DNA of 64,000 nt from the IMG/VR virus record IMGVR_UViG_3300005613_000002, positions 1 through 64,000 of that record; one strand, given 5' to 3'. The notes under the pieces are model-generated. The model saw only the letters and a list, made by a program, of their open reading frames with translations. It did no database searches and had not been told where the DNA came from. Position numbers and translations under genes: made by a program. How positions within the stretch are numbered: the first letter of the stretch is position 1; each line of letters starts with the position of its first letter. The stretch is from a virus. Below, in pieces: positions 2,629 to 44,062 of this stretch.

Positions 2629-4359
2629 TTATTGTTGATAATATATCCCACCAATATCAATAACAGTATTGTCTGGGTCAAGAGGATAATTCGGATTCCC
2701 ATTATCGATACATGGTGATAATGGATTAAGTGAAAAATCTTCATTTTCAGCATCAAGAAATAGTGGGTCAGTATTTAATGAATTTGAATCTAGTCCACTA
2801 TATGATAGATATTCATTAAACTCATTATATTCAAAATTATTATTAGAGGGTAAATTTGCTATTCTACCCGAAGATTGTTGATAACAATTATAGTTAACAG
2901 TTAATTCTGATAATGTCCCATTATCAATATATATGATAGAATTTTTTGCTTCACAAAAAATATTATTTTCAATAATCATATTAGTTACATTACTATTAAC
3001 CGCCCAAGCACAGACATGTCTTCCTGATGGGTCAGAACGTTGACTATTCCCCCAACCATATCCAGCATTATAACAAGTATTATTAATAAATTGAATATTA
3101 TCGACTTCTGACTCATTATTATGATAAAAATATTCAAATGAATATTCACAATTCCAAACAATATTGTTTTTATAAATAATATTTGTTTGATTTCCAGTTG
3201 TTGTTGCTGCTCCTTGATTTGTAAGTGCGGCATCATATATTTCCCATAATTTACAACCTTCAACAAGATTATCATGAGAAGCAGCCCAGAATTCAACACC
3301 ATTACCACATCTCACAGTACCATCACCATATCCTACAAGATATTTTCCACCAAGCCATGAAAAATCACAATCCCTTATTGTAATATGATGTGTATTACCA
3401 CCAGCAATTCCATATCCACCACAATAGTTTAACCATAGATTTTCATAAGTTATATAATTTTCATTTGATTCATTAAAAATATAATTCCCATGTAATAATC
3501 TAATGTCACTATAATAATTTGCTGGATTACCATTAGAATACATTCTCATTCTATCAATTGAAAAATCAAACATAAAATCACCCTGAATTGTAAGATCAGT
3601 AGTATTTGGATATTTAACACCACATGTAGTACTATCATTAAATATAACATTACCCACATCATGACTAAATTCAATATAACTAGCAGTTTCCCATATATTA
3701 GTATCAACTTCTATCCAATCATCAGTACTATTTGCTAAAGTTGAAATATGTAACATTGGTTTAGTTCCTGAACCATAAGCACCATATGTTACATCACCAG
3801 ATAAATCACCACTACTTGATGTAATGCTACCAAAGAAACTATCACCTCTTTTAAATAGAACACTATACCCTGCTTCAATTGAAACTGAGTTTACTTTATC
3901 AATTGTTCTCCAAGGAAATTCTGGTGAAGTGCCTAAATTCGAATCATTTCCAGTATTACTTACATAATATGCATTTGTTATAGGTTCAATTGTGGTCGTA
4001 GTTGTTGGTTCAATTGTAGTTGTACCACTTATAGGTTCTAATGTTGTTGTGGTAGTTGTTGGTTCTAGTGTTGTAGTTGGCTCAATAGTTGTTGTCGTAC
4101 CAGTTATGGGTTCTAGTGTTGTTGTGGTAGTTATTGTGGGTTCTAATGTAGTTGTAGTAGTAGTTGCAGTATTACCTGTAACTACCTCCATTGAATCATA
4201 TGCATCGAAAAAACCAATATCATCAACAGTTGATTCTAAACCAATTTTCATATGATAAATTGCTGTTAAATCAGGTATTATAATATATTTAATACCTTCA
4301 GTTGTTGCAGTAGTACCTGTTGTTAATGACTGTAATATTGTTTTTTTTATGAACTCCAT
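2629..4359 (-). CDS. Tailspike-like protein with Thr-rich linker and parallel beta-helix
   Basis: 576 residues. An N-terminal piece of about 65 residues (start MEFIKKTILQSLTTG) may attach to the virion. Residues about 66-130 are Thr-rich repeats (TTTTTTLEP, TTTIEP). The rest begins YYVSNTGNDSNLGTSPEFPWRTI, a start typical of right-handed parallel beta-helices of the pectate-lyase superfamily. Many Asn-rich turns follow (e.g. NQTNIIYKNNIVWN). Such proteins bind or degrade host surface polysaccharide, but the active site cannot be assigned by eye. The start overlaps the gp6-like gene by 13 bases, implying co-translation. Confidence 0.75.
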   Translation of the reverse strand: MEFIKKTILQSLTTGTTATTEGIKYIIIPDLTAIYHMKIGLESTVDDIGFFDAYDSMEVVTGNTATTTTTTLEPTITTTTTLEPITGTTTTIEPTTTLEPTTTTTTLEPISGTTTIEPTTTTTIEPITNAYYVSNTGNDSNLGTSPEFPWRTIDKVNSVSIEAGYSVLFKRGDSFFGSITSSSGDLSGDVTYGAYGSGTKPMLHISTLANSTDDWIEVDTNIWETASYIEFSHDVGNVIFNDSTTCGVKYPNTTDLTIQGDFMFDFSIDRMRMYSNGNPANYYSDIRLLHGNYIFNESNENYITYENLWLNYCGGYGIAGGNTHHITIRDCDFSWLGGKYLVGYGDGTVRCGNGVEFWAASHDNLVEGCKLWEIYDAALTNQGAATTTGNQTNIIYKNNIVWNCEYSFEYFYHNNESEVDNIQFINNTCYNAGYGWGNSQRSDPSGRHVCAWAVNSNVTNMIIENNIFCEAKNSIIYIDNGTLSELTVNYNCYQQSSGRIANLPSNNNFEYNEFNEYLSYSGLDSNSLNTDPLFLDAENEDFSLNPLSPCIDNGNPNYPLDPDNTVIDIGGIYYQQ

Positions 4360-6209
4360 TGTACAGCTTTCTTTCTCATTGTAACACTAATGTCTTTTTC
4401 TGGATATTTAATTTCAAACATAGAATCTTCTGTTGAGTATATAGTATTATTTATTATATTAATCTCACCAGTTGTTGTATCAAGAATTTCCTGAGAAATT
4501 ACATTACTAGAGTATAATCCACCTGTTTTATTATATGCTTTAAGTTCAATAATATTAATAACTCCATTAGCTTCAAGAATTTCTTTTTCAAGTTTACCCA
4601 AGAAAATATCTTGATTCATTTCATAATTATCAATATCCATATAATCTTTTACAATATTTATTACACTATTAGCAATCTGATTATCTGATAAATTCTCAAT
4701 ATAAATATCAATATCGAATGCTAAATTAAATATTTTCCCATCTGTAACTTCAATATAATCATTCATCATTCTAAACTGACTCAAATATTCAGTAATATTT
4801 TCTTTCAATAAACTATTACTTGAATTAGATAATTTACCATCTGAATCAATATCAAGAACTGGTATCACTACTTTATTATGTAATTTAAGAGCATTACCAC
4901 GGAATGGTGAACCGAACTTCCCGGGCATCTTATAAATTTGCAATAAATAATCAGTTAATGTTACATCTCTTTCTTGTGATGAAAAATTATATTTAATTAA
5001 TTGTCTTATTTGTTCAACACTTAAACCATCATTACCACCAATTGCTGGAATTGGATTTGAAACACTTAAACTCCTAACAACATTTTGTTTATAATCCTGA
5101 CGTGAACCATTTGAAACTAAACTATGCCCACCCATTTGAGTTAATACCTCAGAACCAATATTTGAATTTGAACCACCACCAATTCTATATTTAATAAATA
5201 ACGTATAATTTGCTTTAAGTTTTTCACCTAATGCTGTATTATTTAAAAAGTTTTCAAGAAAATATTTATTAGTTACACCTTCACTTAAAAAACCATCTTT
5301 AAATGCATCAACATCAGAATCACCTGACCCAAATGTTAATTTACAATAACCATTTTGTGTGAATTCTTTAATAAATTTCTTAGTAATATCCATCCAACGA
5401 CCAACTTTAGCACCATTTGCAATTAAACTAGATGATGAACTTTGAGTGTTTTCAACAAAAATTCTCTGTTGTGCTAAATAATTTACTTCATAATATCTAT
5501 CATCTGACGAATTAAATTCATCATTTGTTGGATTTGAATTATTTGTTCCTTCAACCAAGATTACACTATCAATTTCTATTACATCTGGGTCTGGTAATAT
5601 TACACTATAAAAAGGAATAACATCACTACTTGATATAATTTTCTTATAAATATTTGAACTACCATTTATAACTACCTCTCTTTTAGTAACAGTATAACTA
5701 ACAATAATTCCATTTGAATCTAAATTAGGGATTATTGAACGATTAGGGTCACCTAAATTACTCATAGTTGAACTCCAATCAATAACATTCTGAGTTTCAA
5801 AAATTTTACCACCACCAACTACTTGTGCTCCAGAATTTAAAACTGGATAATATGATGCATCAGGACTATCACCAAGTACAGGTATTAAAACTGAAAAATC
5901 AACAACAGTTACCGAAGGTCTTTTAGCTGGAATATTAAATCCCATATTCTTAGCAATATTCAGTATTGATGCCTTTTTTTGTGCATATTCAATTTGTGTT
6001 TCTTGAAAAGTTCTATCAGTATTTACACTTAAATTATTACCAACACCAGCATTTAAATCAATTAACATAGCACCAACACTACTATCAGTAAAATCACTTA
6101 AAACCTCTGGATAAGTTTGTTTAATTAACGAGACTAAATCGGTTCTCATTTCTCCGAAAGTTCTCGAACCATATCTAATTATATTGCTTGCTGTATCTGT
6201 TGTTGCCAT
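4347..6209 (-). CDS. 6: Baseplate wedge protein, T4 gp6-like
   Basis: 620 residues, close to T4 gp6 (660). The N-terminal block (RTFGEMRTDLVSLIKQTYPE, then DFTDSSVGAMLIDLNAGVG and the following helix with KASILNIAKNMGF) is the signature of gp6/J-type baseplate wedge proteins. In T4, gp6 forms the inner iris of the baseplate with gp53 and gp25, which fits the gp25 homologue directly upstream (10-base gap). No start motif other than ATG is needed; the leader lacks a Shine-Dalgarno sequence. Function in the hexagonal baseplate is strongly supported by family and neighbour. Confidence 0.88.
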   Translation of the reverse strand: MATTDTASNIIRYGSRTFGEMRTDLVSLIKQTYPEVLSDFTDSSVGAMLIDLNAGVGNNLSVNTDRTFQETQIEYAQKKASILNIAKNMGFNIPAKRPSVTVVDFSVLIPVLGDSPDASYYPVLNSGAQVVGGGKIFETQNVIDWSSTMSNLGDPNRSIIPNLDSNGIIVSYTVTKREVVINGSSNIYKKIISSSDVIPFYSVILPDPDVIEIDSVILVEGTNNSNPTNDEFNSSDDRYYEVNYLAQQRIFVENTQSSSSSLIANGAKVGRWMDITKKFIKEFTQNGYCKLTFGSGDSDVDAFKDGFLSEGVTNKYFLENFLNNTALGEKLKANYTLFIKYRIGGGSNSNIGSEVLTQMGGHSLVSNGSRQDYKQNVVRSLSVSNPIPAIGGNDGLSVEQIRQLIKYNFSSQERDVTLTDYLLQIYKMPGKFGSPFRGNALKLHNKVVIPVLDIDSDGKLSNSSNSLLKENITEYLSQFRMMNDYIEVTDGKIFNLAFDIDIYIENLSDNQIANSVINIVKDYMDIDNYEMNQDIFLGKLEKEILEANGVINIIELKAYNKTGGLYSSNVISQEILDTTTGEINIINNTIYSTEDSMFEIKYPEKDISVTMRKKAVQWSS

Positions 6210-6219
6210 ATTTTATATA

Positions 6220-6618
6220 TTAAAAATTCAAATCTAATTCACCACTTTCATTAAATACGTCTTCACTATAAGTAAATTTAATATTTACATTTAATTGTGT
6301 CTCAGGAATAGGAATTCCATCATCATCAAGATTCCAATTAAACGTAACTTTATCTATTGTAAGTGCTGGTATATATAATGAAACCGTTTTTTTGATTTCC
6401 TGTTCTACTTCTGATGATGTTAATCTATCATTTGGTTCAAAGATATATTTCAATAAATTAGTACCATAGTCTGGTTCATAATATCTTTCACCCTTCTGGG
6501 TTAATAATAATAACAACAAATCAGAACTAAGCGCATCTTTCGTAACACTAGTCATTTGAAACAACTTGTTTGTTGTTACGTCATCAACAATTGGAAATCT
6601 GATATTATATGAATTCAT
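6220..6618 (-). CDS. 25: Baseplate wedge protein, T4 gp25-like
   Basis: 132 residues, the usual length for gp25 (T4: 132). The segment DLLLLLLTQKGERYYEPDYG is the typical GPW/gp25 core, followed by a helix with SSEVEQEIKKTVSLYIPAL and a C-terminal beta strand. In T4 the protein links the baseplate to the tail sheath and tube start. The partner gp6-like gene follows 10 bases downstream. A late motif lies 16 bases before the start codon. Confidence 0.88.
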   Translation of the reverse strand: MNSYNIRFPIVDDVTTNKLFQMTSVTKDALSSDLLLLLLTQKGERYYEPDYGTNLLKYIFEPNDRLTSSEVEQEIKKTVSLYIPALTIDKVTFNWNLDDDGIPIPETQLNVNIKFTYSEDVFNESGELDLNF

Positions 6619-11331: not shown

Positions 11332-11340
11332 TATAAATAC
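11332..11340 (-). promoter_or_regulatory. Late-promoter-like motif GTATTTATA
   Basis: An exact copy that touches the stop codon of the HAD gene and lies 14 bases before the ParB-like start. Confidence 0.5.
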
Positions 11341-11912
11341 TACACTATGAATTTTTCAATTTCTTCATTAATAATATTATTTAATTTCTTTGATGATTCC
11401 ATTAAGGAAATTTTATCATTATCAACTAAATATAAATTATACGATATTTCATCAGGTAGCATTGTTTTAATTTTTGTATATTCTGCAATCTTCTCAGGAT
11501 TTTTATCCATATAATCATCATAAACATTAATTTCTTCTAATTCTTGATTATATTGTTCAATCTTTAATATCACATCACCCTTACCTTCATTTCCTCTTTT
11601 TAAAATAATATCATCAACAACAATTCCATGCATATTAAGAATATTTGTAACTTGTGGACGTAATTTTTCCCTTCTCGATGTTAATATTATAACATGAGTA
11701 TCTGGAGTGTTTTTCTCCTTATTTAATTGTGCAAGCACAGTTGGAAATGGGTTAATTTCAAAAATGTCTGTGTTAAGACTTTCCTTACGACCCCACCATC
11801 CAATATGTGGGTATTTTTGTCCAGTTTTTTCACTCCAAATTCTAATTCCTTCTTCTTTAAGTGGACTATCAATTAAACATCCATCAAAATCGAATACTGC
11901 TAATCTTTTCAT
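11340..11912 (-). CDS. HAD-family protein, Swiss-army-knife RNA-repair type
   Basis: 190 residues. It starts MKRLAVFDFDGCLIDSPL, with the DxD of HAD phosphatases (D8, D10), then VIILTSRREKLRPQV (motif II Thr/Ser) and later ELEEINVYDDYMDK (acidic motif IV). The VFDFDGCLxDxP start followed by a Trp-rich stretch is typical of the HAD_SAK domain, named for its fusion to RNA-repair enzymes. It follows the 1810-residue protein and the nuclease-like gene with one-base overlaps, which supports an RNA end-processing role such as removal of a terminal phosphate. The substrate is inferred, not shown. Confidence 0.72.
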   Translation of the reverse strand: MKRLAVFDFDGCLIDSPLKEEGIRIWSEKTGQKYPHIGWWGRKESLNTDIFEINPFPTVLAQLNKEKNTPDTHVIILTSRREKLRPQVTNILNMHGIVVDDIILKRGNEGKGDVILKIEQYNQELEEINVYDDYMDKNPEKIAEYTKIKTMLPDEISYNLYLVDNDKISLMESSKKLNNIINEEIEKFIV

Positions 11913-12430
11913 TATTTATAAATTCTTTTATATATTAATTTTTTAAAATCTTCAATAGGAACTTTCACTATAAGGTCTTTACGTCCCACTCTACTATATC
12001 TTCTATAATATTTCAAATTAATTTTACTACAAAATGTAATTGCTTCACCATCTTCTTCATCAGCTTTTTTTATTCCATTTTCAACTAATTCTAATAAATC
12101 AATTCGTTTAACAAATTCAAAACAATCTACATTTTCAAAAGCAATTGTATCCATATATTCAGAACGAATCCACCCTGTTCTACCTATAACGTTAACTAAT
12201 TCAATCCATGCATAACCTAAATTAGTTCCTTCCTTCAAACTTTTAACATCAAAACGTTCATACTTGTTATCCTTAACACACACAACATCCCAATGTTCTA
12301 TCATATTTTGATTTTTTGTTGATAAGAAAGACTTATAATTGTTATTCCCCATCAATTTACAAAATAAAAGTTCACTTTCAGTTCCCTTTCTAGTATCATT
12401 AACTATTTTATTACTTAACCAATTATTCAC
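11912..12430 (-). CDS. Putative PD-(D/E)XK-type nuclease
   Basis: 172 residues. HWDVVCVKDNKYERFDVKS (about 46-64) has an Asp, a spacer strand and a DVK triad, the layout of PD-(D/E)XK nucleases, with a candidate helix Glu at 18-20. The start is GTG (12428-12430) and overlaps the TAG of the 1810-residue gene by one base. Its own TAA overlaps the ATG of the HAD gene by one base. This tight coupling argues for one functional module. It could instead be an inactive relative; a substrate (DNA or RNA) cannot be read from the sequence. Confidence 0.55.
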   Translation of the reverse strand: MNNWLSNKIVNDTRKGTESELLFCKLMGNNNYKSFLSTKNQNMIEHWDVVCVKDNKYERFDVKSLKEGTNLGYAWIELVNVIGRTGWIRSEYMDTIAFENVDCFEFVKRIDLLELVENGIKKADEEDGEAITFCSKINLKYYRRYSRVGRKDLIVKVPIEDFKKLIYKRIYK

Positions 12431-15400
12431 TATCCAGTACTTTCAATAAATTCAATTGCTTTTACTGGTATATCTTCAGGAGAAGCATATCTTTTACATG
12501 CTGCTCTATGTGTATAACAATAAAAACCCTTTTTATCTGCACCTAATGATACACCAGCAGATTTTGATGTTTTTTCTGTGAAACCTTTTGGTTTACTTAA
12601 ACCATGAACTCTACCACCTTCATGATAACTTGAACCACCAGTAAGATATTTAGAAATTTTTTCCTTCATATCTTTACTAATGTTTTTTGATCTCATTAAG
12701 GACTCTTTAGTGTTTTTATATTTTGTTTTTTTCTTTGATTCTTGTAATGGTTGTGATTTCATTATTTCAGTCACAACACCTTTTAATTTAAATGAAAACT
12801 GAATCTTTCTCCAATCAGTTAATTTATTAGACATAAATGGTTTCCCACCATTTTTTGTGTTAACAGCTAATGTTACATGAGGTATTTTATTATTTGTTGG
12901 GTAACCTGAAACTCCAACTGCCATAACTTTATCATCTAATCCATAATTAATAACATTAAGTTCAACTTCCTTACCTAAATCTTGTTCATATTTTGGGTCA
13001 ATTCTACCCATATTTAATGTCATATGATGTGCATACTCTTTCCAACCTTCAGGAATCATTTTACCAAACACACTTAACAATTGTTTATGTGATGTTTCAT
13101 CAAGTAATACACAACTATATAAAACATCACCATCCCAATCAGATGATTCTAACATTGTTTCTTGTTTTGATTCATCAAGTTTTAAAATTGTTGCATTTTC
13201 TTCTTTTGTTGAAAAAATTAATTCATTACCAACCATTTCATATTTTTTTGTAAAATCTTTAACATATTTTTTACCTTTACCTTTTTTCACATAAGCAATA
13301 GTTATATGTGGATGATAATTTGGAAATGTTGAAACATTTGGCAATTTTTTCATCACACTATTGATTTTATTTAAAAGTTCAGATTCTACATCAAATTTAA
13401 CAACATCAAAATCTTCATTCTCAAAAATTGATATTTTATTAACTTTAATCTTAATTTCCTTTAAGTCAAAATTTTCCTTATATAAATTGAAAACATCATC
13501 ATTAGTTACATTATCTTTAAATCCATATAATGCAGTAACATGTGGTTCATTTTCAATACCAAATTCACCATTAACCTCATAAATATCATCCTTATCAATT
13601 TTTGATGTCAAGTTACTCCATTTAGGAATATCAAGTGACAACATTAATACACCATATTCAACCTTTTCAGTTTTTGATTCATTTAATGTGACACTAGTAG
13701 ATTCATTTTTATTGACTAAACTTAATAATTCTTCTTTATTATTCAAGACTTTATCATTGTAAACTTTCAATAATAAAGATTTTTGCATATCACCAATTTC
13801 TTTTCCTTTTAAACCAGCATTCATTAAATCATTACCGTTAACGGCTAATTCAGCAGTAGTTTTAGGGTATTTACCCTGTAATAATTCATTTGCTGCATTT
13901 TGTAATTCAGTTGGAATTATTTTACTTTGTAATGATTTTGGTGAAATGACGAACATATTATGAGCTATAGACCTTGCACTAACTTTATTAGTTACATCAT
14001 GACTAAGACCTAAATCTAATGCTCTAATTTCTTTATATGTATCAATATCACCCTTCAAATTATTTTTATAAAATTCAGCAGGATTTTCTAATAATCTAGT
14101 TAATAAATAAATAAACTCACCCATTGTTTTCACTAAATCAAATGGACTTCTATCTATTGTAGATTGTTTAATGTCAAAACCAAATATATTATTAAATAAT
14201 CCAGTATCTTTTAATAATTGTGCACCACTTCTAATATTTCCTTTAGTTACAATTTTATCAAATTCAGTAATAACTCTTTCTGGTGGAATTTCTTTAATTC
14301 TTTCAGAATTTTTTTGAATCATACCCATTGTATTTGGTTCAATCGTAAAATTGAAACGAGATGAAAATTGTACAGCACGTAACATTCTTAATGGGTCATC
14401 AGCAAATGCTTCAGGATTAACAACACGAATTATTTTATTTTTTAAATCTTCTTGACCACCATATGGGTCAATAATATCACCATTAACATCTTTAGCTATC
14501 GCATTAATGGTGAAATCTCTACGTTCTAAATCTTTCTCAATCGGTAATTCATGATCTGAACTAACTTCAAAACCTTTATGACCACCAACACCTGTTGCCT
14601 TTTCTGTTCTTGGAATGGCGATGTCTATATCTTCTGTCGAACCTTTAGGTTTAAATTTTAACACCCCAAACGATTTTCCAACAGCATCAACTCTACCATA
14701 TTTTGATAATAGTTGTTCTAATTTATCAAAAGCAACACCAGTTATTAAGATATCTAAATCTTTAGATTCTTTACCTAAAAAACCATCACGTACAGCACCA
14801 CCAACTGAAAATATTTTCCCACCAAGTTCTTCAACTTCACCCTTAAATGGTAAATCTTCTAATGACATTAAATCTGCTTCATCAATCGTTTTCATTTCAT
14901 TATTTTTTGCAAAGTTATCATTTTCTAAATAACTATCATTATCTTTTGATATTTTTTCATCAAATCTTGCTTCAAAACCTTCATTAATTAAAACATTTCT
15001 GAAATCATATTTAGGGTTTTTTTGTTTTGCTCTCCTTAAAAATTCCTCAAACACTGGCTTACCTTCTTCAATTTTTGGCACATCTTTCCAATATGGGTCT
15101 TCATCAAATCTATCTTCTGGGTCTTTCATCATTACATTAGATTCACCAAGAAAAAAAGCAGTAGAACTACCTAATCTTTGAACTGTGATAAATTCAGTAG
15201 GTAATTTTTTATCCCAACGTTCTACGAAATTTATTAATCCAAGTTTATCTAATTTATCTAATATTACATTATGAACAACATTTGCTGATTCTTCAATATA
15301 TAAATTCCCTTCTTTATCAATTACACCTCTCACATATTGACCAATATTATCCAATGTATTAGGATTTTTTATGATTGTAACATTTTCATCCTTATATACA

Positions 15401-17862
15401 ATCTTTTCACCATCTTCACGGTTTTTTTGTGATTTAAAATCTTTTTCAAAATCATCAAACTCTGGCTTCATTCCATGTCTTCTTTCAAGATATTTATCAC
15501 CAACACCTTCAATATTTAATTCAGGTTCAAGATTATATCGTTTATTAACATATTTTTGTATTGATTCTTCACTATAATCCAATAGTCTACCAATTTCGAT
15601 AGTTATCTCAGGTGATTCATTTTTAAAATAACCACCATAACTTTTTAAAATTTCAACTAATCTTTTAGCCTTTCTTTCTGCTTCTGGTGTATCACGATAA
15701 ATAATTCTTCTATCATCATTATGGTTTGTTTGTTCAATTGGTATATCTTTAAATTGATTATTTATTATCGCATATTTTAAATAAGTACTATTAATTCCCT
15801 TTAAATTAAAGAAACCAACATCTTTTTTACCATTAACCATTGCAGCCATTGCATCTTTAGCATGATATGCTTCCGAAGCATCTATTGTTTCTTTCAGTGG
15901 TTTAATATTAAGGTTACTAATATCTCCTTGATTACAAGCAACACTTGTATTACCAAGACCACCTAACTTACATTTATCTTTTACTTCAACACTACTACTA
16001 CCTTTCATTGAAGAAGTAATACGTTCACTCATAATAAAACTATCAGAAGTAGCATCATCAACATGGTTATATTCTAAATCTTCAGCATACATTGCAGAAT
16101 TTGCTTTTAAATCATTTTCAATTGAAGGTGATGTGTCAGTTATATCATATGATGGAAAACCATCATTACCAATATTACCATCTGTAGAATATAAAGCAGT
16201 CCCATCTTCATCAACATTTAATTGTTCTGGTTGTTTATCTGATGTATTATAATAATTTCCAAATCCAACATCAAAAAAACCAATACTACCATCTTTTTTA
16301 TAACCTAAATTTTTTGGACTATAAAAATCAGTACTTTCAGAACCATATTTTTGTAATTCCTCAAATATTTTCAACAAACTAAAAAAGAATGTACCATCTT
16401 CGGTATTCTTATTAAAATAATTATCAATATCACTTTTATTAACTTTACCAACATATTTAGTGTTATGAAAATATTCTTCAAGAGCAATTCTATAATTAAT
16501 ATTAAATATATTATCAAACACATAATTCAATCTGTTTAACATTTTTTCAAAATATGGTACGTCTGTTTTTAGCTTTTCTAAAATAATCACATAATAATCT
16601 TTATCACCTTCTGTTTTTATTGAATAAACTTTATATGGTTCTGCAATATATTTTAATTCTTTGCCAATCAATGATAAATTCTCATAAGCTTCACTTCTAT
16701 CTGATGTTACTTTTAAAACTAAATTATTTCCAATATCATATGCTGAACCAAATGAACCTGAATCCATATATTCAAGAGTTACACCATATTTTTCAGCAAC
16801 TACATTAGCTATTTTATCAGCTAAATTCCTTTCAATACCTTCATTAATTGATTTTTTCTTTTCAATTATTTCAATTTTATTTAATGGTTCTCTATTATAA
16901 AATCCTAATTTAATTAAATGATCTTGTAGTGTAATTAAATTATTATAAAACTTTTTCTTATCTTTCGCAACATTAAGATTTTCTTTAATATTATTTACAA
17001 CAGCATGTAAATTTTCAACCATATATGGGACAGCACCCAATGGTTGTGTAGTTAAATTATCATTGTTTGATACAAAATGTACAAAATCTTCATTAATCAC
17101 ACTATCATTATCACCATCATCAACACTATATGGTACTTGCGCCCACATTCCATGACGAACTTCCCAAGTATTCCCTATGTCTGAAAGTATATCATCATTA
17201 CCATCAGCAAAATTATATAATTCATACATTTGATTTTTTTTATTTCTTAATGGATTATAATGTGTATTATATACTTCATCATTTAAACCATAATCAGTTA
17301 ATACTATTGTTGGTTGACCATATCTTAATACTTCACCATATGTACTTGGTCTACCCATATCACCAACCTCTTGGCTATAGTTATTAACGAATTCTATAAG
17401 TTCCATAACAAACTCATTCTCATGCATTTCTTCTTCAACACCAGCATCAAGAGTAAATAAATCCTTATCTCTCCAATTTTTTTGGTCATTTCTTTTTAAA
17501 TAATAAAGTAACGAGTTTAAATCTGGAATACCTGTTAATTCTTTAATTCTACTTTGAGTAACTTTTTTTGCTTTTTCTGAAAGAATCCAAGTATATTGAT
17601 TTTCATCAAAATCAAATACTTTTGTAACTATATCTTGAGTATCTTGATATGTACCAGCACCAGATTCGGCTTCATTTTGTGCTTGACCTTTAGGGTTTTT
17701 TGCTAATTTTAACACTACCTTATCATCAATATCATAAACTGCTCTACCAGTACCACTACCAATTTTAGTTAATTTTGCATTAGCATGTTTTATCTTACCG
17801 TTAAACGATCTAATATTTTGGATTTCGTTGATAAAATTATCAACATATTCATTATATATCAT
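12430..17862 (-). CDS. Giant multidomain RNA-repair-type polyprotein
   Basis: 1810 residues. Visible parts: kinase-like domain 1 (about 28-195; GSGTGR loop at 35, VVLKLAK); kinase-like domain 2 (about 355-540; GSFGSAYD at 369, VLKV, DVGFG at 531 in place of DFG); an unassigned region 630-990; a class II CCA-adding/poly(A)-polymerase-type head (about 1000-1230; GGAVRDG at 1021, DLDIL at 1035, RRDFTINAIA at 1114, RMLRAVQFSSRF at 1159); 2H phosphoesterase-like domain 1 (HVTALYG at 1441, HPHITIAY at 1517); a second 2H-like domain (HHMTLNMG at 1612, HVTLAV at 1662); and a Cys/His C-terminal domain (YCYTHRAAC at 1781). Motifs of (I/L)xE then G/S stand at 341, 961, 1395, 1564 and 1708, at or near domain borders. 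tRNA 3'-end repair and cyclic-phosphate opening are the predicted activities. Confidence 0.82.
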   Translation of the reverse strand: MIYNEYVDNFINEIQNIRSFNGKIKHANAKLTKIGSGTGRAVYDIDDKVVLKLAKNPKGQAQNEAESGAGTYQDTQDIVTKVFDFDENQYTWILSEKAKKVTQSRIKELTGIPDLNSLLYYLKRNDQKNWRDKDLFTLDAGVEEEMHENEFVMELIEFVNNYSQEVGDMGRPSTYGEVLRYGQPTIVLTDYGLNDEVYNTHYNPLRNKKNQMYELYNFADGNDDILSDIGNTWEVRHGMWAQVPYSVDDGDNDSVINEDFVHFVSNNDNLTTQPLGAVPYMVENLHAVVNNIKENLNVAKDKKKFYNNLITLQDHLIKLGFYNREPLNKIEIIEKKKSINEGIERNLADKIANVVAEKYGVTLEYMDSGSFGSAYDIGNNLVLKVTSDRSEAYENLSLIGKELKYIAEPYKVYSIKTEGDKDYYVIILEKLKTDVPYFEKMLNRLNYVFDNIFNINYRIALEEYFHNTKYVGKVNKSDIDNYFNKNTEDGTFFFSLLKIFEELQKYGSESTDFYSPKNLGYKKDGSIGFFDVGFGNYYNTSDKQPEQLNVDEDGTALYSTDGNIGNDGFPSYDITDTSPSIENDLKANSAMYAEDLEYNHVDDATSDSFIMSERITSSMKGSSSVEVKDKCKLGGLGNTSVACNQGDISNLNIKPLKETIDASEAYHAKDAMAAMVNGKKDVGFFNLKGINSTYLKYAIINNQFKDIPIEQTNHNDDRRIIYRDTPEAERKAKRLVEILKSYGGYFKNESPEITIEIGRLLDYSEESIQKYVNKRYNLEPELNIEGVGDKYLERRHGMKPEFDDFEKDFKSQKNREDGEKIVYKDENVTIIKNPNTLDNIGQYVRGVIDKEGNLYIEESANVVHNVILDKLDKLGLINFVERWDKKLPTEFITVQRLGSSTAFFLGESNVMMKDPEDRFDEDPYWKDVPKIEEGKPVFEEFLRRAKQKNPKYDFRNVLINEGFEARFDEKISKDNDSYLENDNFAKNNEMKTIDEADLMSLEDLPFKGEVEELGGKIFSVGGAVRDGFLGKESKDLDILITGVAFDKLEQLLSKYGRVDAVGKSFGVLKFKPKGSTEDIDIAIPRTEKATGVGGHKGFEVSSDHELPIEKDLERRDFTINAIAKDVNGDIIDPYGGQEDLKNKIIRVVNPEAFADDPLRMLRAVQFSSRFNFTIEPNTMGMIQKNSERIKEIPPERVITEFDKIVTKGNIRSGAQLLKDTGLFNNIFGFDIKQSTIDRSPFDLVKTMGEFIYLLTRLLENPAEFYKNNLKGDIDTYKEIRALDLGLSHDVTNKVSARSIAHNMFVISPKSLQSKIIPTELQNAANELLQGKYPKTTAELAVNGNDLMNAGLKGKEIGDMQKSLLLKVYNDKVLNNKEELLSLVNKNESTSVTLNESKTEKVEYGVLMLSLDIPKWSNLTSKIDKDDIYEVNGEFGIENEPHVTALYGFKDNVTNDDVFNLYKENFDLKEIKIKVNKISIFENEDFDVVKFDVESELLNKINSVMKKLPNVSTFPNYHPHITIAYVKKGKGKKYVKDFTKKYEMVGNELIFSTKEENATILKLDESKQETMLESSDWDGDVLYSCVLLDETSHKQLLSVFGKMIPEGWKEYAHHMTLNMGRIDPKYEQDLGKEVELNVINYGLDDKVMAVGVSGYPTNNKIPHVTLAVNTKNGGKPFMSNKLTDWRKIQFSFKLKGVVTEIMKSQPLQESKKKTKYKNTKESLMRSKNISKDMKEKISKYLTGGSSYHEGGRVHGLSKPKGFTEKTSKSAGVSLGADKKGFYCYTHRAACKRYASPEDIPVKAIEFIESTG

Positions 17863-24988: not shown

Positions 24989-25912
24989 TTATATATAATT
25001 TTCACTACCAATTAGACATTCTGAATTACTTAATGAAATTGAAATCTTATCCGACTTTATTTCAACACTAGCATCACCATCATTTGATGGCATTGGGTCT
25101 GAATTATATTTTGATGATTCTTTATTCAACATTTCTTCTTCAGCCATTATTTGTTCTCTTTTTTTCATATAGTCCTCACCATTTTCATCGACAACCCTAT
25201 AACCATGTCTATGTATTTCATTAACTTTGTCATGTAACATTTGTTCCTTGTAATTTTCAGGATAATTATTAGACTCATAATAATTAGTGGAAATTATTGT
25301 TTTACATGGAATACAACAACAACACGGTTTATATTCAATAAATTCATTATCTTTTGTTGATTCAATAATACGTGGATTTTCACAAGTATATATTAAATCC
25401 ATATATTTTTTCGGTAAATCTTTAGCCATTTGCCATTTTTTCATTTTTGATAATGGAAACACCAAAGGTATCATTTTATCACAAATAGATTGATATGATT
25501 TATAAATTTTTTTTATATCATTTAAATATGGAATTGCGTCATCATTGGAAACGTATCCAATTTGTATTTCATCCACCTTTAAACTTTGTAAAAAAACAAC
25601 ACCAAACATCCAAATTGGTATCTGTTTAAAATATAAACTATCTTCACAAATATTAACATTCACACTTGCAGCATATTCAACATCATGTAGCAACTTTTCA
25701 TCACATTTATATGTATCATCATTAGAATTGAATTCATCTTGAAATTCTTTCATTAATAAACCAACACGATTCTTTTCCATCATGACTTTATTATAATTGT
25801 TTTGAATTTCAATATAAATCGGAATTACAGTATTTCCATCCTTTAAATTTTTCCATACCAAATAGGTAGAATCTAACCCACTTGAAAATAAAATAGCAAC
25901 TCTTTTACTCAT
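24989..25912 (-). CDS. QueC-like PP-loop ATPase
   Basis: 307 residues. The PP-loop SSGLDSTY (about 10-17) at the N-terminus and a C-terminal Cys cluster (YTCENP, then KPCCCCIPCKTI) match QueC-type 7-cyano-7-deazaguanine synthases and their relatives, where the cysteines bind zinc. Known phages use this pathway to build 7-deazaguanine in DNA against restriction. Other pathway genes (queD, queE, folE, transglycosylase) are not in this window. It lies 5 bases before polB and 12 after the SNF2 gene, in a replication operon, consistent with DNA modification. Another PP-loop amidotransferase role remains possible. Confidence 0.72.
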   Translation of the reverse strand: MSKRVAILFSSGLDSTYLVWKNLKDGNTVIPIYIEIQNNYNKVMMEKNRVGLLMKEFQDEFNSNDDTYKCDEKLLHDVEYAASVNVNICEDSLYFKQIPIWMFGVVFLQSLKVDEIQIGYVSNDDAIPYLNDIKKIYKSYQSICDKMIPLVFPLSKMKKWQMAKDLPKKYMDLIYTCENPRIIESTKDNEFIEYKPCCCCIPCKTIISTNYYESNNYPENYKEQMLHDKVNEIHRHGYRVVDENGEDYMKKREQIMAEEEMLNKESSKYNSDPMPSNDGDASVEIKSDKISISLSNSECLIGSENYI

Positions 25913-43012: not shown

Positions 43013-43021
43013 AATTTCAAT

Positions 43022-43047
43022 TTACTGTAAACACAATAAGTTCTTCC
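43022..43047 (-). repeat. Array repeat element, copy A
   Basis: Minus strand GGAAGAACTTATTGTGTTTACAG then TAA. The consensus of the four copies is GRRAACTWWNNGTGTTTACAGTAA. This copy precedes the GC-rich hairpin. Confidence 0.75.
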
Positions 43048-43207
43048 ATAAAACAAATTTTTTGAAAAAAATCAATATTTTACTATTGATAAAAACCATT
43101 TTTAACCTACACATCATTTTACTGATGATTCAAATGTTAGGTGGGGTGATGTTTTTATAAACATCCAAAAAACTTTGGGAATATTTTTAAAGTATTTGTT
43201 GCTTTTT

Positions 43208-43301
43208 GTGTGCAAGTTTTAACGACTTGTGACTTTACCGTTTGTCTATATCCCCAATTTTATTTTTTATTGGTGGGGATAGAAGGATTCGAACCTTCAA
43301 T
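43208..43301 (-). tRNA. Circularly permuted tRNA-like gene
   Basis: Reading the minus strand: a T-arm GAAGG-TTCGAAT-CCTTC, then acceptor 3' strand TATCCCC, discriminator A and encoded CCA (43281-43271). A 15-base A/T spacer follows, then GGGGATA-TA (43255-43247), a D-arm GAC-AAACGGTAAA-GTC and an anticodon-like stem CAAGT / ACTTG with loop CGTTAAA. GGGGATA pairs 7 of 7 with TATCCCC, so the halves are in reversed order. No T-arm exists further downstream that could serve the 5' half. The loop has G, not U, at position 33, so decoding is doubtful; a tRNA-like or Y-RNA-like role may be better. Confidence 0.6.
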
Positions 43302-43303
43302 AA

Positions 43304-43330
43304 TTACTGTAAACACTTATAGTTTTCCCT
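43304..43330 (-). repeat. Array repeat element, copy B
   Basis: Minus strand GGGAAAACTATAAGTGTTTACAG then TAA. It abuts the T-arm of the permuted tRNA-like gene and is preceded by AGGTTAAAG, a D-loop-like string. Confidence 0.75.
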
Positions 43331-43467
43331 TAATATCTTTAACCTATTGAACTGTGTGTTTATGTGAGGCACTACTTGGAATGTAATTTATCAGTTTTAC
43401 TAGCCTTTTCATGTTCATTCAATTTAGGAATCCGTTTCCATTTTGTTTGGATTCTTAGGTCAAATTG

Positions 43468-43602
43468 TGGGGAGAATCGGATTCGAACCGATAATCTATT
43501 GATTTCAACTCAATTGCTTTAACCTATTACTGTAAACACTAATAGTTCTCTTTTAAAGAGTAATGAGATAGTATTATTTGTTTTTGTTTTTGCTATCTCC
43601 CC
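43468..43602 (-). tRNA. tRNA-like gene split by an insertion in the D-arm
   Basis: The 5' acceptor strand GGGGAGA (43602-43596), then TA-GC, pairs 7 of 7 with TCTCCCC (43475-43469), which follows a good T-arm ATCGG-TTCGAAT-CCGAT. Between GC and the D-loop string AGGTTAAAGC lie about 65 extra bases that include an alternative hairpin (GAGATAG / CTATCTC), a CTCTT-TAA-AAGAG hairpin and repeat copy C. The anticodon stem ATTGA / TCAAT has loop GTTGAAA, giving UGA if read normally, but the variable loop is short for tRNA-Ser. No CCA is encoded. Intron, degenerate tRNA or tRNA-like ncRNA are all possible. Confidence 0.55.
43527..43551 (-). repeat. Array repeat element, copy C
   Basis: Minus strand AGAGAACTATTAGTGTTTACAG then TAA. 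It lies inside the split tRNA-like gene. CTATTA before and TAATAG after can form a hairpin with loop GTGTTTACAG. Confidence 0.75.
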
Positions 43603-43835
43603 ATTTATTAAATCCTGTAATTTTAATTAATACTTTATGTTTCTCTCTTTTCAGTAGCGTACATATCTCGTTAATCCTAAATTACAGAATTATTTTTTTA
43701 AATCTAAGCACCATGCCATTTCATAGGTATTAAAACCGCCAAAATTGGGGGTCTGCTTAAATTTATTTCATTATTTTAAAGAACTTTAAGCCAGTTACGT
43801 TTACATAAAGTAAAGAGGCTTTACTGACTATCATG

Positions 43836-43923
43836 TAGCGGGAGAGGGATTCGAACCCCCGTTAAACCTTATTCAGGACTCCGTGCTTATGAGACAGGTG
43901 AGATACCGCTTCTCCATCCCGCA
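43836..43923 (-). tRNA. tRNA-Met(CAU)-like, initiator-type acceptor, long variable region
   Basis: Acceptor pairing uses TGCGGGA with TCCCGCT. Positions 2-7 pair and 1-72 do not, as in initiator tRNAs. D-arm GAGA-AGCGGTA-TCTC. Anticodon loop CTCATAA gives CAU. T-arm GGGGG-TTCGAAT-CCCTC. The anticodon stem has one C-C mismatch and the variable region is about 20 bases, longer than normal. No CCA encoded. Sequence start GCGGGATGGAG recalls bacterial initiator tRNA. Confidence 0.65.
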
Positions 43924-43966
43924 ATATATTTTTTATAAAAGGATAGTTTATTTGTTATATGTTGTT

Positions 43967-44040
43967 TTTACAAAGTTGGATTTGAACCAACGGCATACTG
44001 CTTATAAGGCAATCACTCTAACCGACTGAGTTATTTGTTA
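43967..44040 (-). tRNA. tRNA-Ile(UAU)
   Basis: Complete cloverleaf: acceptor TAACAAA with TTTGTAA (one A-A mismatch), D-arm ACTC-AGTCGGTTA-GAGT, anticodon stem ATTGC / GCAGT with loop CTTATAA (UAU), T-arm GTTGG-TTCAAAT-CCAAC. It would read AUA, a frequent codon in this AT-rich genome. No CCA encoded. Repeat copy D overlaps its first bases. Confidence 0.85.
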
Positions 44041-44062
44041 CTGTAATAACAATTAGTTTCCT
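44038..44062 (-). repeat. Array repeat element, copy D
   Basis: Minus strand GGAAACTAATTGTTATTACAG then TAA. It forms a perfect TTGTTA / TAACAA hairpin with loop TTACAG, and the right arm is also the 5' acceptor strand of the tRNA-Ile. Confidence 0.72.

Follow-up and report, generated by a model that had tools for sequence, protein, structure and literature searches.

What is a single 1810-aa viral chain for, when it carries two protein-kinase-like domains, a CCA-adding enzyme and two 2H phosphoesterases? The ORF, at 12430-17862 on the minus strand of the 64,000-nt stretch analysed here (the window), starts with ATG, has no internal stops and comes from a 321-kb jumbo-phage record (giant bacterial virus). 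The original prediction had described this very fusion, without giving its strand, and its composition was borne out by Pfam and PDB matches and, for the kinase-like domains, by predicted structure. Further segments, which that prediction did not mention, occupy residues 207-258, 546-658, 659-782 and 800-960, the C-terminal segment belongs to phrog_3666, and [LI]xE motifs, likewise unmentioned, mark the junctions. About 60 viral contigs contain full or partial syntenic homologues, so the architecture is not a product of chance; no isolated phage with the same polyprotein was found in INPHARED. The features discussed below are listed in Table 1.

Table 1. Features of the polyprotein locus and of the tRNA genes, with positions in the window
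Feature	Positions	Strand	Remarks
HAD phosphatase (HAD_SAK_1; phrog_415 polynucleotide kinase)	11340..11912	-	two genes downstream, synteny conserved
Next gene, overlapping the ORF, 172 aa	11912..12430	-	no family match; kept in some relatives (L003, L006)
Modular polyprotein ORF, 1810 aa (proposed)	12430..17862	-	ORF call and syntenic homologues
C-terminal segment, residues 1709-1810, phrog_3666	12433..12738	-	no assigned function
Junction LQE1706-1708	12739..12747	-	[LI]xE motif
2H-2, residues 1576-1702	12757..13137	-	HMT1613-1615, HVT1662-1664; fungal tRNA-ligase CPD-like
Junction LDE1562-1564	13171..13179	-	followed by stretch about 1565-1577, pLDDT < 50
2H-1, residues 1396-1561	13180..13677	-	HVT1441-1443, HIT1519-1521; Acb1/2_5_RNA_ligase2/ThpR-like
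Junction LNE1393-1395	13678..13686	-	[LI]xE motif
CCA-adding enzyme module, residues 996-1392	13687..14877	-	GG1021-1022, RD1025-1026, DLD1035-1037, RRD1114-1116
Junction IDE993-995	14878..14886	-	[LI]xE motif
Junction INE959-961	14980..14988	-	[LI]xE motif
D4, residues 800-960	14983..15465	-	no assigned function
D3, residues 659-782, conserved segment	15517..15888	-	no assigned function
Junction LKE656-658	15889..15897	-	[LIV]xE directly after GG segment in 44/47 homologues
Junction MSE611-613	16024..16032	-	[LIMV]xE|R in relatives; accessory cassettes, e.g. GNAT, inserted here
D2 kinase-like module, residues 342-545	16228..16839	-	K384, D512, N518, D531
Junction INE339-341	16840..16848	-	in linker 333-341, pLDDT < 50
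Junction INE256-258	17089..17097	-	[LIV]NE in 32/38 relatives; preceding 206-253 pLDDT < 50
D1 kinase-like module, residues 1-206	17245..17862	-	GSGTGRxVY loop, K52, E66, D168, D190 (DYG)
tRNA-Met (CAT)	43835..43923	-	no encoded CCA
tRNA-Ile (TAT)	43967..44040	-	no encoded CCA

The CCA module matches PF01743 (2.9e-22), PF12627 (3.1e-15) and CCA enzymes in the PDB (to 4e-29), and it combines a Pol-beta head bearing GG, DxD and RRD with an RNA-binding neck and body. By these domains and motifs it is a class II CCA-adding enzyme, predicted to add CCA rather than poly(A) or to have another activity. No second PF01743 match occurs in the genome, and the motifs are intact in 48 of 48 full copies; in relative L006 the catalytic head is deleted, and the activity is thus dispensable there. 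Among the 2H-2 homologues, 52 of 56 match Pfam tRNA_lig_CPD (PF08302), with no other family recurring, both HxT motifs are kept in 64/65, and simpler relatives have a CPD of this type fused to a P-loop kinase (KIN-CPD). Loss of catalytic residues from the CCA or 2H modules would have spoken against the original prediction, and they are all in place (R1025/D1026, D1035/D1037, H1441/T1443, H1519/T1521, H1613/T1615 and H1662/T1664, besides the GG and RRD motifs).

The two 2H domains differ in affinity, and the expectation that both open 2',3'-cyclic phosphates remains a supported prediction for CPD-like 2H-2 but loses ground for 2H-1. Family matches place 2H-1 at residues 1399-1553 (2_5_RNA_ligase2/Acb1) and 2H-2 at 1579-1700 (tRNA_lig_CPD). 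2H-1 matches Acb1 in 18/18 homologues, its Pfam scores being 27.8 bits for Acb1 (cut-off 27) versus 26.6 for 2_5_RNA_ligase2, and in the PDB profile search ThpR was a better match than Acb1. 2H-1 resembles RNA-end enzymes no more closely than it does Acb1 (anti-CBASS) and ThpR. Acb1 itself (T4 57B) is an anti-CBASS 2H nuclease (PMC9117128), which 2H-1 resembles in its HxT/HxT pair, its Pfam match at the cut-off and its top Foldseek matches, and from which it differs in matching 2'-5' RNA ligase/ThpR equally or better and in being embedded in a polyprotein. Both 2H domains might serve to remove immune signals made of cyclic or 2'-5' oligonucleotides (CBASS etc.), the link to repair being incidental; the recurrent Acb1 matches, the high Foldseek rank of Acb1 and of a viral 2'-5' oligoadenylate enzyme in the search with the 2H pair, and the signal degradation or RNase activity proposed by Iyer et al. 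for polyvalent-protein 2H domains (PMC5512222) agree with this. However, 2H-2 matches the tRNA-ligase CPD family only, has the CCA enzyme as its neighbour and occurs in relatives as a fusion with a P-loop kinase, and 2'-5' RNA ligase families are just as good a match for 2H-1, which makes this explanation quite improbable.

The kinase-like modules fit a repair enzyme less well. The PHROGs and Pfam scan assigned no family to D1 or D2, and PDB profile searches with them returned only weak or chance matches, so their fold assignment rests on AlphaFold models and Foldseek, by which they match protein-kinase-like folds (JNK2, APH, ULK1, CDK2). Both keep the catalytic K/D/D residues, of which the original prediction had asked for the Asp to be checked, and neither extends more than about 15 residues past the DxG motif. 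The Walker A motif GxxxxGK[ST] (P-loop) is absent from D1 and D2 and from the whole chain. A protein-kinase/APH fold lacking a P-loop argues against D1 and D2 as polynucleotide 5'-kinases, and on these modelled structures the phosphorylation of RNA ends that had been proposed for them is unlikely. D1 homologues of 210-230 aa stand alone in simpler phages, and D2 is often tandem in relatives. As for the unassigned segments, a D4 homologue forms a separate 187-aa gene (G000:171420-171983), and the phrog_3666 segment moves between genes in relatives.

The surrounding genome provides much of an RNA-repair setting. Besides the HAD phosphatase close to the ORF, the phage encodes a P-loop kinase, an Rnl1-like RNA ligase within the tRNA array (135768-136856) and an Rnl2-like RNA ligase (270272-271294); RtcB ligase was not found in the genome. 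The earlier remark that no ligase domain is evident stays true of the chain, with two ligases supplied elsewhere in the same genome. Encoded CCA is lacking from nearly all of the genome's 46 tRNAs, and is present in 3 of the 45 tRNA/tmRNA genes checked. Three CCA-less tRNA-type genes had been reported for the window; ARAGORN calls two there, both indeed without CCA, and there is also a sub-threshold tRNA-like fragment. Because 2H-2 matches the CPD family alone, has relatives fused to a P-loop kinase, and shares its genome with a nearby HAD phosphatase, two ligases and CCA-less tRNAs, a predicted role in tRNA repair is supported for 2H-2 and for the CCA module. The baseplate wedge genes at 4347-6618 keep their synteny with the ORF, placing it in a late/virion gene neighbourhood, and a DNA polymerase lies on its other side.

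These tRNAs also bring to mind ordinary maturation, in which the CCA module would simply complete the phage's CCA-less tRNAs after a chance fusion to unrelated neighbours. Such a task would suit the sole CCA enzyme of a genome so poor in encoded CCA, and many relatives encode CCA on its own, in a gene without a leader. Nevertheless, most bacterial hosts supply their own CCA enzyme, and neither the near-constant 2H-2 partner nor the protease motif at the junctions would be explained, so we regard maturation alone as unlikely.

Across the roughly 60 syntenic loci the number of cassettes varies, and they may be joined or separated, in certain cases by homing endonucleases; the order is constant, individual cassettes are gained, lost, duplicated or split, and the splits and fusions fall at the same joints. 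A homing endonuclease or intein as the cause of the split genes was considered and rejected: endonucleases occur in L004, L005 and L175, but the downstream ORF starts are natural. A GNAT cassette is inserted in L118 (Pfam-confirmed) and a weak one in L006; ParB-like and ADP-ribosyltransferase-like cassettes seen by eye in L006 lacked Pfam confirmation and are not claimed. The CCA module and 2H-2 lie side by side in nearly all relatives, and in L004 they form a compact two-domain protein of 529 aa. This adjacency, the intact catalytic motifs and the repair genes of the genome would all suit a single uncut enzyme whose modules act jointly on cleaved tRNAs, as originally envisaged, but the independent gain, loss, duplication and splitting of modules, the absence of an RNA-kinase fold and the protease-type motif at the joints leave that reading with a low probability.

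That motif follows the head-maturation system of the phage. The genome encodes a prohead protease of the T4 gp21 family (Peptidase_S77, PF03420, 6e-18; G000:103107-103811) and a gp23-type capsid protein (Gp23, PF07068, 3.5e-74). The cleavage motif of the gp21 protease is L/I-X-E (PMC9026906). The capsid N-terminus, '...ENQLSHMINE|SSDSS', carries INE|S where maturation cleavage is expected, as conserved in nine relatives, and nearly every module boundary of the chain bears the same expected cut signal. The density of [LI]NE is 6.61 per 1000 aa outside domains and 1.31 inside, against 1.0-1.4x for control motifs. A shift test gave 176 versus 92.5 +/- 7.2, with 0/1000 shifts as high, although acidic linkers inflate the motif counts somewhat and E[NDT][LI], a control, shows mild enrichment too. 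Taken per junction, 44/47, 25/26, 18/19 and 34/43 carry the motif, as against 21% of in-domain 16-aa windows, the counted junctions being related rather than independent sequences; some [LI]xE lie inside domains. The GNAT cassette of L118 is flanked by [LI]xE on both sides. A T4-like N-terminal capsid-targeting peptide (residues 1-13) is no more than a tentative candidate in the fused form, where just 22/38 relatives retain [LI]xE at residue 13. Stand-alone D1, KIN-CPD and CCA proteins share common leaders (e.g. MKxxIKxILRE, a pattern picked post hoc). In many relatives 2H-2, and sometimes CCA as well, is a separate leaderless gene starting directly at the domain, and is thus not obviously packaged, at least in those relatives.

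Because of the [L/I]-x-E junctions, the gp21-family protease, the INE|S site of the capsid protein and the fivefold excess of [LI]NE outside domains, we favour a polyprotein over one multi-activity enzyme, and consider it reasonably probable that the ORF encodes a modular precursor cut during head maturation, whose CCA and 2H-2 modules would heal tRNA. The repair setting that had been predicted is retained, whereas the modules probably do not work together in one chain. We infer that separately folded cassettes are joined by linkers whose [L/I]-x-E sites suit the phage's own protease family; the precursor would enter the prohead, its junctions would be cut while the capsid protein matures, and the released modules would accompany the DNA into the cell, as T4 Alt and the IP proteins do. 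In the host, 2H-2 would open 2',3'-cyclic phosphates on damaged or immature tRNA 3' ends and the CCA module would rebuild the tail, alongside the phage HAD phosphatase, P-loop kinase and two RNA ligases. D1 and D2 probably phosphorylate host proteins, and the breakdown of a nucleotide immune signal is the probable task of 2H-1.

The nearest known kind is the polyvalent protein of phages and conjugative elements, so that the earlier statement of an undescribed architecture does not hold for the general type (Iyer et al. 2017, PMC5512222). In that account, these proteins likewise carry many unrelated enzymatic domains per chain, show extreme mosaicism, include 2H and GNAT cassettes, have virion genes nearby and are proposed to act early after injection; their kinases keep active-site residues with a reduced or lost C-lobe, a description that may also apply to D1 and D2. 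Processing by zincin-like metallopeptidases is proposed there. The sections used here report no association of 2H versions with RNA ligases, and do not mention a CCA-adding enzyme together with a tRNA-ligase-type CPD; relative to this account, the CCA and CPD combination and the prohead-protease-type joints set the present case apart (PMC5512222). T4 Alt and the internal proteins IPI-III, which the phage packages into its head and ejects as a countermeasure to the host, share the gp21-family protease, the L/I-X-E sites and the gp23-type head, but they are single proteins with terminal propeptides, whereas the present chain is a string of many modules, with no clear conservation of an N-terminal targeting peptide (PMC9026906). 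Like T4 with Pnkp/Rnl1 against PrrC, this phage has a HAD phosphatase, a P-loop kinase and an Rnl1-like ligase, the last encoded among its tRNA genes, but its end-healing is spread over several genes, including the CCA and CPD modules of the polyprotein. The fungal tRNA ligase Trl1 has the order ligase-kinase-CPD; 2H-2 belongs to its CPD family and relatives show the P-loop kinase-CPD fusion, whereas this chain lacks both P-loop kinase and ligase, joins the CPD to a CCA enzyme and leaves the ligases as separate genes. The multifunctional CCA protein of E. coli couples its CCA enzyme to an HD domain, a 2',3'-cyclic phosphodiesterase; the coupling predicted here is alike, but with a 2H domain of unrelated fold, within a polyprotein.

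Polyvalent proteins, in which unrelated enzymes are joined in one chain, have been puzzling so far. More tentatively, and with a confidence that stops short of belief, we suggest that the head-maturation protease yields virion-packaged tRNA-healing enzymes, kinases and signal-degrading enzymes for delivery at the first moment of infection, and that new cassettes bring their own [L/I]-x-E tag, making the capsid protease a general means of releasing interchangeable counter-defence modules. If so, capsid-protease sites at every joint would account for the conversion of polyvalent chains into separate working enzymes, and further proteins of this sort could be flagged by a simple computational search for such sites. 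Some phages would then bring ready-made tRNA repair enzymes, ahead of anticodon-nuclease defences, and would not depend on translating them once tRNA destruction is under way.

The original prediction of one chain carrying two kinase-like domains, a CCA-adding enzyme and two 2H phosphoesterases was upheld. The source record is a jumbo phage genome of 321,624 bp, and the window is its positions 1-64000. In the ORF, P0001, sequence searches recovered both 2H domains and the CCA module at residues ~996-1392 (PF01743, 2.9e-22; PF12627, 3.1e-15), which matched CCA enzymes in the PDB (best 4e-29). The kinase-like domains D1 and D2 had no Pfam family match; the region was modelled with AlphaFold2 from 24 sequences (mean pLDDT 80), and matches to JNK2 (2.7e-4), APH(2'')-Ia (4.2e-4) and ULK1 (4.7e-4) in the PDB suggest a fold like that of protein kinases and aminoglycoside phosphotransferases. 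All five enzymatic modules, kinase-like, CCA and 2H alike, keep the expected catalytic residues. D1 and D2 are unlikely to phosphorylate RNA ends: the entire chain lacks a P-loop, so neither domain is a T4 Pnkp-type polynucleotide kinase.

Locations of P0001, its relatives and other features (G000, whole virus record in genome coordinates; L, loci)
Feature	Location	Strand	Description
P0001 ORF	window 12430-17862	minus	1810 aa, ATG start, 0 internal stops
2H-1 domain	P0001 1399-1553		from sequence searches
2H-2 domain	P0001 1579-1700		from sequence searches
Motifs at P0001 module borders	INE258, INE341, MSE613, LKE658, INE961, IDE995, LNE1395, LDE1564, LQE1708		same type as capsid motif
Additional P-loop kinase	G000 94869-95354		AAA_33, 1.8e-20
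Relative L003			1293-aa form, D2 missing
Relative L004			split: 1097-aa D1-D2-D3 protein, LAGLIDADG endonuclease, 529-aa CCA + 2H-2 protein
Relative L005			more finely split; GIY-YIG endonuclease separates CCA from stand-alone 131-aa 2H-2
Relative L006	7842-12638		1598-aa form; in-frame deletion removes CCA catalytic head (SVGGAV joined to LLDKTGLF); CCA body and 2H-2 retained
Endonuclease genes	L004:11345-12169; L005:10535-11470, 13301-13951; L175:3336-3986		exactly between cassettes
D4 homologue	G000:171420-171983		187 aa
[LI]NE-rich protein	G000:283083-286091	minus	1002 aa
Pol-beta-type nucleotidyltransferase	G000:117523-118287		254 aa, PF01909 1.8e-4
tRNA array (L010, L011)	G000:122564-159617		44 tRNA genes, tmRNA
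TTACAGTAA	window 43020-44047 (44047, 43538, 43315, 43033)	minus	four spots
TTACAGTAA, longer form	G000 155364, 160068		near tRNA array
QueC-like protein	window 24989-25912	minus	

The tRNA-repair setting claimed for P0001 is supported for the CCA module and 2H-2, and the remark that no ligase was evident is supplemented by ligases elsewhere in the genome. Among 56 homologues of 2H-2, 52 matched the CPD family of fungal tRNA ligase and no other family recurred. In simpler phages, a ~310-aa protein joins an N-terminal P-loop kinase (AAA_33, 1.7e-12 to 1.3e-10) to a C-terminal 2H-2, each making up one half; this is the KIN-CPD end-healing pair. Two genes downstream of P0001, a HAD phosphatase resembles HAD_SAK_1 at 5.7e-5, slightly under the cut-off of this 'Swiss Army Knife RNA repair' family, and matches phrog_415 polynucleotide kinase (4.1e-7). 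The genome also encodes an Rnl1-like ligase inside the tRNA array (1.6e-19) and an Rnl2-like ligase (6.4e-12); RtcB was not found in it. The genome yielded no second CCA enzyme. Because just 3 of the 45 tRNA/tmRNA genes outside the window (44 tRNAs, one tmRNA; two more tRNAs lie inside) encode CCA, the CCA module can act in maturing tRNAs as well as in repairing them, roles inseparable by sequence. For 2H-1, all 18 homologues matched both 2_5_RNA_ligase2 and Acb1, the PDB profile search placed archaeal 2'-5' RNA ligase-like proteins (1.2e-4) ahead of Acb1 (0.0019), and Foldseek of the predicted 2H pair gave phage phosphodiesterases and Acb1 as top matches. We favour, with low confidence, degradation of a nucleotide signal.

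The tRNA array covers most amino acids and includes a called tRNA-Pyl (CUA anticodon), a possible amber suppressor. TTACAGTAA, lying beside intact or fragmentary tRNA sequences and rare elsewhere in its longer form, might act as a promoter or as a signal for processing or recombination. The QueC-like queuosine biosynthesis gene adjoins DNA polymerase and helicase genes and suggests modified bases.

An initial scan gave four syntenic loci; profile scans added 80 with 2H-2 and 56 with D1, and per-segment HMMs yielded 99 non-redundant loci. Across these the order D1-D2(-D2)-linker-GG segment-[D3/D4/others]-CCA-[2H-1]-2H-2 is constant, and cassettes vary by gain, loss, duplication, fusion and splitting. 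Nearly every locus that holds both CCA and 2H-2 has them fused or side by side. Their catalytic motifs are under selection, since GGxxRD, DxD and RRD are intact in 48/48 full CCA modules and both HxT motifs in 64/65 2H-2 modules. The intercassette endonucleases are of LAGLIDADG, GIY-YIG and possibly one other type, and a D4 homologue stands alone away from the locus. A syntenic copy on a Bacteroidota MAG contig hints weakly at the host.

The capsid protein of the phage is of the gp23 type (PF07068, 3.5e-74), and its prohead protease belongs to the gp21 family (PF03420, 6e-18). At the site corresponding to the cut in T4 gp23, the capsid protein reads ...ENQLSHMINE/SSDSS, and INE/S is kept in nine relatives. 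T4 gp21 cleaves after L/I-X-E and processes both termini of Alt (PMC9026906). In 70 non-redundant multi-domain homologues of P0001, [LI]NE density was 6.61 per 1000 aa outside domains vs 1.31 inside, and five control motifs had outside/inside ratios of 1.0-1.4; with motif positions shifted within each ORF, the observed 176 compared with 92.5 +/- 7.2 and was reached in 0/1000 shifts. The reversed control E[NDT][LI] was mildly enriched too, as expected because linkers are acidic. Within 16-residue windows, [LIV]xE occurred after the GG segment (44/47) and before D3 (25/26), 2H-1 (18/19) and 2H-2 (34/43); the rate in random in-domain windows was 21%. Linkers 333-341 and ~1565-1577 of P0001 have pLDDT <50 in predicted models. 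At the MSE613 position, the relative L118 carries a GNAT domain (PF00583, 1.2e-5) flanked by ...VDE/ and ...VNE/, suggesting that accessory cassettes bring their own tag.

P0001 is most likely a polyprotein of the 'polyvalent protein' kind with T4-internal-protein-like release: the prohead protease would cleave it, and the products would be packaged and injected. Packaging is favoured by stand-alone D1 proteins of simpler phages, in which a conserved YP motif is preceded by a leader of 12-35 aa that ends in [LIMV]xE, and by leaders such as MKxxIKxILRE common to D1, KIN-CPD and CCA proteins; this pattern, picked post hoc from the data, marks 42/1248 gene starts vs 29/7425 internal methionines. 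Two observations speak against packaging: just 22/38 relatives retain the N-terminal motif at residue 13, and stand-alone 2H-2 and CCA genes in close relatives start right at the domain. Elsewhere in the genome, the 1002-aa protein has ten [LI]NE, the densest among the large proteins, and DUF3008 as sole recognised domain; it is a candidate for the same processing. The nucleotidyltransferase adjoins acidic [LI]NE-containing proteins.

The closest known kinds are polyvalent proteins, as generally described (PMC5512222), which P0001 resembles in kind, and T4 internal proteins, which it resembles in its proposed release by the prohead protease. P0001 differs from both in uniting the two kinds and in carrying tRNA 3'-end enzymes. 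The module fusion is of greater interest than originally claimed, and for another reason: the joints count for more than the domain total.
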